Positions 758 through 2,543 of a DNA stretch of 15,402 bases are shown piece after piece. Position 1 is the first letter of the stretch; each line of letters begins with the position of its first letter. Origin of the DNA: an uncultured Bacillota bacterium. Its GTDB lineage: Bacteria > Bacillota > JAAYKD01. Under the pieces are notes generated by a model, which was not told the origin of the DNA, did not search any database, and saw nothing but the letters and a program-made list of their open reading frames with translations. The stretch lies in contig CALCNS010000005.1 in assembly GCA_937897315.1 (NCBI GenBank), forward strand, positions 1 through 15,402, given 5' to 3'. The position numbers and the translations under genes are program-made.

Positions 758-1153
758 ATGTCAAATCCAATTCGAGTTTTAGTAGCGAAACCGGGATTAG
801 ACGGTCATGATCGAGGTGCAAAAGTCATTGCTCGTGCGTTTCGAGATGCCGGTATGGAAGTCATCTACACCGGGTTGCGCCAAACCCCGGAGCAAATTGT
901 TGAAACTGCCATTCAAGAAGACGTCGATCTCATTGGCCTTTCTATTTTATCTGGTGCGCATAACCACTTATTTCCTCGTATAATGGAGCTTTTAAAAGAG
1001 AAGGAAGCACTGGACATCAAAGTAATCGGTGGCGGTGTTATTCCTGATGAAGACATTCCTTTCTTAAAAGAACAGGGTATACTGGAAATCTTTACACCCG
1101 GAACGTCCACTGTCGATTGTATCGAATTTGTTCGTCAGCATGTTCAGAAATAG
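758..1153 (+). CDS. Methylmalonyl-CoA mutase, B12-binding small subunit
   Basis: 131-residue cobalamin-binding domain protein, the separate C-terminal half of the mutase. It holds adenosylcobalamin base-off/His-on: the DxHxxG signature is present as DGHDRG in the N-terminal GLDGHDRGAK motif, and the later GLSILSGAH and VIGGGVIPDED stretches form the rest of the Rossmann-like fold. The ATG at 758 is preferred over an earlier in-frame start inside the mutase gene because AAGGGGGAG lies just upstream and the protein then begins directly with the domain. It starts 13 bases after the large-subunit stop, consistent with coupled translation of the two partners. Length is normal for stand-alone mutase B12 subunits. 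Confidence 0.94.
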   Translation: MSNPIRVLVAKPGLDGHDRGAKVIARAFRDAGMEVIYTGLRQTPEQIVETAIQEDVDLIGLSILSGAHNHLFPRIMELLKEKEALDIKVIGGGVIPDEDIPFLKEQGILEIFTPGTSTVDCIEFVRQHVQK

Positions 1154-2543
1154 ATTATCGGAATACGAGTTGGATTTACTGCAGGGATTGCGTCAGCGGA
1201 AGAAGCGACATTTAGCCAAAGCAATTACCTATGTAGAAAACAACTTTTTGACATCTCGTCCTTTTATGGGGGAGTTGCATCAATGTATACCACCGGGCAA
1301 GAGTGATGTGATTGGTATTACTGGGCCTCCTGGAGCGGGGAAGAGCACGTTAACCGGAAAACTGATCCAACATTATCGCCAGTTGGGAAAAGAAGTTGGC
1401 GTGATATTAATCGACCCAACCAGCCCATTTAGTGGTGGCGCTATCCTTGGCGATCGGATTCGAATGAGTGAAAGTTTTACGGATACAGGAGTCTTTATCC
1501 GGAGTATGGGTTCTCGTGGCCGATTGGGTGGATTATCCGCTGCAACGCAAGATGCTATCAAATTAATGGATGCCTACGGGTTCGACGTCATTCTCGTTGA
1601 AACCGTTGGGATTGGTCAAGCAGAAACCGAAATCGTGGAAACGGCCGATATTACTGTTGTGGTATCTGTCCCGGGATTAGGAGATGATATTCAGATTATC
1701 AAGGCCGGTATAATGGAGATTGGGGATCTCTTTGTCGTAAATAAAGCCGATAAAGAAGGAGCCGAACGTGTTGTTACCGAAATTAACATGATGTTAGATT
1801 TAGCACCGAAAGGTTCACTCAGACCACCGGTTATCAAAACGGTTTCGACTAAGGGAACAGGTATCGACTTATTGGCAGAGGCATTACATCGTGTAAAAGA
1901 ACAATCCATGATGAGTGGCAAATGGAAGAAAAACAGAGAAGAGCGCTTGTGGAAAGAACTAGAGAGCAATGTATCGGCTCAATGGGGGAAAATCCTACGC
2001 GAGAGTAGCTTATATGCGAATCGCGAAATGCTGTTGCAATTGCTATCGGAAGGTAAAACCAATGCGTATAGCGAAGCAGTCTCCATTCTGAATGAATTAC
2101 GACTACCATCGGACTATGGGTTGAAAAAAAGGAGTTTTGGTATGTTGCAAAAAATCGATCATCTCGGTATCGCTGTGAAAGATTTAGCTCAAGCTGTCAA
2201 ATTTTATCATGAAGTATTAGGCTTAGAACTAAAAGGCACAGAAGTAGTGGAAGAGCAAGTGGTTACAGTAGCCATGTTGCAAATCGGAGAAAGTAAAATT
2301 GAACTGTTAGAACCCACTTCGGAAGAAAGTCCTATTGCAAAAACCATCGAAAAGCGTGGTGAGGGTATCGCTCATGTTGCTTTTCAAGTAGACAACATTG
2401 AAGAAACACTAGCTCAGTTAAAAGCCGGTGGAGCAAGACTCATCGACGAAACCCCCAGAATTGGTGCTGGTGGGGCAAAAATTGCATTTGTTCATCCGAA
2501 ATCCACCTATGGTGTTTTGGTGGAACTTTGTGAGAAGCACTAG
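1140..2543 (+). CDS. MeaB-type GTPase fused to methylmalonyl-CoA epimerase
   Basis: 467-residue two-domain protein. Residues about 1-320 are a MeaB/ArgK G3E-family GTPase, the chaperone that loads and protects cobalamin in methylmalonyl-CoA mutase: P-loop GPPGAGKST (62-70), ETVGIGQ (154-160), NKAD (201-204). Residues 335-467 are a complete methylmalonyl-CoA epimerase of the vicinal-oxygen-chelate fold, which interconverts the (R) and (S) substrates; likely metal ligands are His341, Gln373, His412 and Glu462. The MeaB C-terminal helix ends near residue 320, so the linker is only about 14 residues. The ATG at 1140 overlaps the preceding stop by 14 bases. A TTG at 1128 is also possible and neither has a good Shine-Dalgarno, so translation is probably coupled. 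A strong internal ribosome binding site precedes Met335, so free epimerase may also be made. Domain calls are firm; the functional fusion is inferred from the continuous frame. Confidence 0.9.
   Translation: MFRNRLSEYELDLLQGLRQRKKRHLAKAITYVENNFLTSRPFMGELHQCIPPGKSDVIGITGPPGAGKSTLTGKLIQHYRQLGKEVGVILIDPTSPFSGGAILGDRIRMSESFTDTGVFIRSMGSRGRLGGLSAATQDAIKLMDAYGFDVILVETVGIGQAETEIVETADITVVVSVPGLGDDIQIIKAGIMEIGDLFVVNKADKEGAERVVTEINMMLDLAPKGSLRPPVIKTVSTKGTGIDLLAEALHRVKEQSMMSGKWKKNREERLWKELESNVSAQWGKILRESSLYANREMLLQLLSEGKTNAYSEAVSILNELRLPSDYGLKKRSFGMLQKIDHLGIAVKDLAQAVKFYHEVLGLELKGTEVVEEQVVTVAMLQIGESKIELLEPTSEESPIAKTIEKRGEGIAHVAFQVDNIEETLAQLKAGGARLIDETPRIGAGGAKIAFVHPKSTYGVLVELCEKH
2131..2144 (+). promoter_or_regulatory. 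Internal ribosome binding site and start codon for free epimerase
   Basis: GGAG (2131-2134), preceded by a run of seven A, lies 7 bases before an in-frame ATG (2142). That ATG is exactly where a stand-alone methylmalonyl-CoA epimerase would begin (MLQKIDHLG). The spacing is ideal, and the site is at least as good as those of the other genes in this operon. It could be the relic of an ancestral separate gene or a working second start giving a 133-residue epimerase. Function is inferred. Confidence 0.55.

Follow-up and report, generated by a model that had tools for sequence, protein, structure and literature searches.

The locus analysed here raises the question of what is made from a single reading frame that encodes a MeaB GTPase followed by a methylmalonyl-CoA epimerase and that still carries, where the two parts meet, what looks like the start of a separate epimerase gene. 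The frame lies in the window, the whole stretch of 15,402 nucleotides that was analysed, which comes from an uncultured Bacillota bacterium (contig CALCNS010000005.1). As a preliminary description of this DNA had stated, 1140-2543 is one open frame that holds a complete MeaB and then a complete epimerase; it has 467 codons, and profiles of both parts score above their cut-offs (Table 1). The epimerase part scored alone reaches 165 bits with TIGR03081, and the Pfam profiles agree with both domain calls. The best solved relatives of the first part are the MeaB-type GTPases 6cum, 8dpb and 2qm7, those of the second the epimerases or glyoxalases 3oa4, 6wf6 and 1jc4. Among 41 aligned fused sequences, the window's included, G62, G65, G67, K68 and S69 of the P-loop are invariant, as are N201 and K202, with D204 nearly so; residues 201-204 (NKAD) are taken here to be an NKxD-type motif. 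In the second part H341, E388, H412 and E462 are invariant and E368 is nearly invariant, these residues presumably being the metal ligands and the catalytic Glu of the epimerase. The predicted masses are 51.1 kDa for the fusion and 14.4 kDa for an epimerase begun at 2142.

Table 1. Features of the fused gene and its neighbours, in window coordinates.
Feature	Position	Strand	Basis or remark
Mutase catalytic subunit, C-terminal part	34..744	+	PF01642 positions 287-512; gene begins before the window
B12-binding subunit of methylmalonyl-CoA mutase	758..1153	+	TIGR00640, 175 bits
MeaB start / B12-subunit gene end, 14-nt overlap	1140..1153	+	no Shine-Dalgarno (SD) sequence before the MeaB ATG
Fused ORF, MeaB GTPase + methylmalonyl-CoA epimerase, 467 aa	1140..2543	+	ATG 1140, stop 2541-2543
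MeaB part, residues 1-319	1140..2096	+	TIGR00750, 311 bits (cut-off 240.75; residues 22-313); PF03308, 283.5 bits
P-loop GPPGAGKST, residues 62-70	1323..1349	+	alignment of 41 fused sequences
NKAD motif, residues 201-204	1740..1751	+	alignment of 41 fused sequences
Linker, residues 320-334, former MeaB tail + intergenic stretch	2097..2141	+	sequence and junction comparison
A7-GGAG, SD-like site, read through as Lys-Lys-Arg-Ser	2124..2134	+	junction DNA
Epimerase part, residues 335-467, from its own ATG	2142..2540	+	TIGR03081, 161 bits (cut-off 114.95; residues 338-465)
Methylmalonyl-CoA decarboxylase alpha-like (mmdA)	2567..4105	+	TIGR01117, 879 bits, below the cut-off of 998.8

The fused gene forms part of a propionate-type operon, which runs from the mutase catalytic part and the B12 subunit through MeaB-epimerase to the decarboxylase alpha-like gene and on to genes for an OadG-like protein, a biotin carrier, phosphate propanoyltransferase and an H+-pyrophosphatase. 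The last three, beginning with the biotin carrier, occupy 4517-7557, and a DUF401 protein is encoded downstream of the pyrophosphatase at 7715-8944. None of the scanned proteins of the window was recognisable as a decarboxylase beta subunit (mmdB). The overlap of 14 nt between MeaB and the B12-subunit gene is found in all four loci examined (the window, L089, L090 and L006), and the MeaB ATG lacks an SD sequence in the window (duplex -0.9 kcal/mol) and, judged by eye, in the other three as well, which suggests that MeaB is probably translated by coupling from the B12-subunit gene. In contrast to MeaB, the epimerase has its own ribosome site, whether the locus is fused or split.

At the junction the DNA reads TTG AAA AAA AGG AGT TTT GGT ATG. 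The internal ribosome binding site is where it had been claimed to be, with the A7 run at 2124-2130, GGAG at 2131-2134 and seven bases before an in-frame ATG at 2142-2144, and the TGA reported in the +1 frame at 2122 is there too. When 356 internal in-frame ATG, GTG and TTG codons of 15 window genes were scanned for a six-base SD core 5-10 nt upstream, only three had an exact core, namely 2142, its neighbour 2145, and 4520, the last of which only echoes the BCCP start at 4517; such a core precedes 9 of the 15 gene starts. By wobble-tolerant duplex energy 2142 is not exceptional and is absent from the best internal ATGs listed, among which eight others stand at -9.5 kcal/mol or better (one of these, 13373, is probably a real gene start). 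The predicted unpairedness of the internal site is 0.53, as against 0.35-0.71 at 14 gene starts. AGG, a codon within the SD site, accounts for 6 of 168 Arg codons in the window, where it is rare, and for 8 of 94 in four long frames around L089, where it is less so. Position 2142 thus offers what is looked for in a dual-product gene, an in-frame ATG with an SD sequence at normal spacing.

Fused and split forms both occur among close relatives. A search of about 5.8 billion proteins, with 8000 candidates scored and the best 120 listed, returned as its top matches P0001, P0002 and P0003, at 100, 87 and 74% identity, all of them fused and all 467 residues long; P0001, listed at 100%, has a representative that differs from the window by one residue, and is found on eight contigs from three sources (ncbi, lgn and ena). 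In a whole-genome comparison, the class of L006 (a MAG named 'Symbiobacteriaceae bacterium') comprised four genomes, the same four as its order, of which one is fused (G305, locus L089, 72%) and three are split (G306, G304 and G002). The single MeaB and the single epimerase that exceed their cut-offs in G305 both belong to the fused gene; the genome from which the window comes may carry a second epimerase gene. With relatives at 87, 74 and 72% also fused, a real fusion is indicated rather than a lone assembly slip. The preliminary description had looked to close relatives with separated genes as evidence against the fusion; such relatives do exist (P0005, at 83%, and G304), but so do the fused ones, and the objection holds only by half. 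Locus L003 also looked fused and was rejected, there being stops between its MeaB and its epimerase. At about 4930-5140 of that locus, repeated short units with stops lie between the genes, like an inserted DNA repeat.

The joints themselves can be compared. The fused joint of L089 reads CAAAGGAGGACAACTATG and the split joint of L091, in G304, reads CAAAAAGGAGAATGACTATG, in which the TGA is the MeaB stop, 5 nt upstream of the epimerase ATG. L090 is split by a single in-frame TGA 9 nt upstream of the epimerase ATG, and L006, likewise split, has AGGAGG ahead of its epimerase ATG. The window and L089, the two fused junctions seen as DNA, have the SD sequence and the ATG at an identical spacing of 7 nt; the linker of L089 reads QRRTTM, with the Met at the epimerase start, and the linkers of P0002 (RKGVYAM) and P0003 (QRRIVM), seen as protein only, are compatible with an SD sequence. 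The site would be read in one frame by P0002 and by the tail of the split P0005 (LEKGE, then the end), both as judged from protein, and is read in another by the window (KKRSFGM), L089 and, again as judged from protein, P0003. This suggests two routes of joining, loss of the stop and a one-base change before the site.

Trees point to a state that has not been stable. In a MeaB tree of 30 rows, from which L010, L026, L066 and L081 were left out for want of a usable frame, the ten rows of the window's lineage form one side of a branch with 100/100 support. Within them the fused P0002 pairs with the split P0005 (98/91), P0001 joins these at 94/84, and the split P0006 and P0007 fall between this group and P0003 with L089 (98/93). 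In a 29-row tree of the epimerase, fused and split forms are again intermingled, with weak support. With MeaB and epimerase joined, for 10 rows, the best tree requires at least three changes of state, and several of its forks are open: neither a single clade of the four fused rows (AU p = 0.059) nor a grouping of P0001 with P0002 (p = 0.079) is rejected, the starred branches by themselves force one change, and equally few changes are obtained in 233-250 of 500 shuffled labelings. On the best trees the fusion would have been gained, lost or both more than once in the window's lineage. Ten distant fused proteins are separated from this lineage by the 100/100 branch of the MeaB tree and lie there together with split rows, and the distant fusions apparently have a separate origin or origins.

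A search for proteins with ArgK/MeaB and epimerase domains in this order, as the preliminary description had advised, shows that the arrangement is common among the database proteins listed: 115 of the best 120 matches listed have the epimerase part, three close and 112 distant. The distant fusions, among P0008-P0120, are diverse, have very variable linkers, and include proteins named 'MeaB' or 'LAO/AO transport system kinase' and several named after groups of Acidobacteria. Proteins assigned to 'Acidobacteria bacterium' (P0017), 'Pyrinomonadaceae' (P0029), 'Terriglobia' (P0054) and 'Clostridia' (P0008) share the domain order of the window, and the database proteins are similar to it in length, at about 43-51% identity. 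They differ in that the ten placed in the MeaB tree sit outside its lineage, and in that most are without the Met that the window has at the epimerase start. Counted 3-11 residues before the first metal His, such a Met is present in 24 of 111 distant fusions (P0010, whose domain start is missing, was left out), as against all three close ones, and in L089 also; these counts cover ATG-type starts, GTG and TTG starts being invisible in protein. A narrower pattern count, which misses 12 rows, places it in 19 rows, the three close ones included.

A different picture is obtained from the class of Phascolarctobacterium, presumably Negativicutes, of which 300 genomes were surveyed with up to five candidates scored per genome. 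At least 278 of the 300 have some match among the matches listed; full-length collinear pairs of MeaB and epimerase in one frame number 68, each with at least one stop, and no fused MeaB-epimerase is found among the matches listed. Two sets of candidates were rejected as further fusions: of the 'open frames' of 484-497 residues seen at some MeaB matches, the four translated directly (L097-L100) gave ordinary MeaB proteins of 313-320 residues, and L101, of 560 residues, holds a frame of 386 residues that is without an epimerase.

A real fusion in several assemblies and relatives, together with a junction that resembles a gene start, makes the fusion plus free epimerase the likeliest output of the locus, much as the preliminary description had proposed. 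We consider it reasonably probable that the stop of MeaB has been bypassed recently and in a labile manner, with free epimerase still initiated at its own site and some fusion, probably tolerated, made alongside it. In the split relatives the MeaB stop stands just upstream of the epimerase ATG; in the window it would be bypassed by a tail that is apparently one base longer across the A-run, a one-base change being the presumed cause. Ribosomes coupled from the B12-subunit gene would translate MeaB and continue into the epimerase, yielding the 51 kDa fusion, and other ribosomes would enter at the retained SD sequence and ATG 2142, yielding the ordinary 14 kDa epimerase. Split relatives share this initiation layout, so the fusion would cost little; it is probably near-neutral, and any benefit from tethering would be secondary.

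Other accounts of the locus can be weighed against this one. A sequencing or assembly error, in which a miscounted base of the A7 run joins two normal genes, would be in keeping with the position of the junction at a homopolymer and with the occurrence of the halves apart in near-identical sequence: P0004, a MeaB near-identical to the window's, ends after 325 residues, just before the linker, whereas P0121 consists of a free epimerase of 133 residues, identical to that part of P0001; both come from the source lgn. These two could, however, be contig edges, or could derive from a strain whose frame stops after codon 325, and the same species may be split as well as fused. With P0001, on its eight contigs from three sources, P0002, P0003 and L089 all fused across junctions that differ, an error seems very improbable. 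Slippage at the A7 run as a means of adjusting how much free MeaB is made relative to the fusion is likewise very improbable: a +1 slip can re-pair on AAA AAA, after which MeaB would gain 15 residues before a stop, but the corresponding position of L089 has just three A, so the A-run is not a shared feature. The SD sequence and ATG might also be a relic of recent joining, with an obligate fusion of 51 kDa as the only protein that matters. The equal length of the three close fused proteins is consistent with this notion, as is the lack of a Met in 87 of the 111 distant fusions counted above (GTG and TTG starts again being invisible), so that the fused epimerase domain alone probably suffices there and an obligate fusion can evidently work. 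Yet the SD sequence, the spacing and the ATG persist in L089, and P0002 and P0003 are compatible with them, despite linkers as different as KKRSFG, RKGVYA, QRRIV and QRRTT, and an SD sequence so near an ATG is expected to initiate; for the window's lineage the relic is a possibility that we find doubtful.

The preliminary description had further proposed that the locus ties the mutase chaperone to the epimerase, and the fusion might indeed be kept by selection for holding the epimerase beside the mutase and its chaperone. Such a tether is compatible with two products, so that its probability and that of the favoured reading need not sum to one. Fusions with this domain order make up a large and distant set, apparently of separate origin. 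MeaB dimerises through its C-terminal helices, and its GTP hydrolysis is stimulated by the mutase (PMC9974510). The fused epimerase follows the region of these helices, so a tether would not have to block MeaB. Against tying as the function, P0005 and G304 keep two genes, split forms sit among fused ones in the window's lineage, and the Phascolarctobacterium class shows stops in all 68 collinear pairs and no fusion among its listed matches. Tolerance explains a state that flickers between fused and split no less well than selection does, and a selected tether is on balance unlikely. A more elaborate version, in which the locus adjusts itself, is a long shot: free epimerase would pair with the epimerase domains of a MeaB-dimer fusion, the mixed complexes would dock epimerase on the mutase during B12 loading, coupled translation from the mutase subunit gene would determine how much enzyme is tethered, and single-base changes at the A-run or the stop codon would turn the joint on and off in evolution, perhaps even within the species.

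The favoured reading, a tolerated bypass that retains the free epimerase, has partial parallels in known systems. G-protein metallochaperones are typically standalone, with IcmF described as the 'notable exception' (PMC10481361), and a review lists IcmF as the MeaB fusion protein (PMC9164220). IcmF (isobutyryl-CoA mutase with a MeaB-like domain, PDB 4xc6) resembles the window gene in linking a MeaB-type GTPase to a component of an acyl-CoA mutase system, but the partner is the mutase in IcmF and the epimerase in the window. The window gene is not an IcmF: there is no mutase domain in 1140-2543, and with NF045497 it reaches 138 bits where the cut-off is 1500. The separate meaB-epimerase pairs of G304 (L091), L006 and Phascolarctobacterium faecium (L005) have, like the window, an SD-like site before the epimerase ATG, and L091 and L006 also carry an mmdA-like gene; all three have a stop codon between the genes, which the window lacks. 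Bacterial pairs of N-terminal proteoforms, as described in PMC11005335, arise from alternative in-frame starts with a strong SD-like context, so that one frame yields both a long and a shorter protein, as is proposed for the window, where the inner start differs in being a former gene start that would give a whole separate enzyme.

The preliminary description knew of no earlier account of the fusion. No account of a MeaB-epimerase fusion was found in the literature searched, which comprised titles, the beginnings of abstracts and passages, with subscription papers mostly outside it, but the domain order is common among the database proteins listed. Apparently new here is therefore not the order, already present in public proteins, but a labile and seemingly recent MeaB-epimerase fusion that keeps the old gene start. 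As a second type of MeaB fusion, frequent among the listed database matches, the arrangement suggests a possible role for the epimerase alongside the complex of chaperone and mutase. In the window's lineage a fusion seems to be under way: its split and fused relatives stand at 72-87% protein identity, and the original start of the epimerase gene is still intact. The lineage can therefore be used to test whether gene fusion begins as read-through that is tolerated and leaves the old product in place.

In the whole of the window, no Rfam match was obtained at gathering scores. The gene at 11103-13394 presumably encodes a penicillin-binding protein; the strongest duplex energy of the window scan precedes ATG 13373 within this gene, so its listed TTG start is probably seven codons too early.
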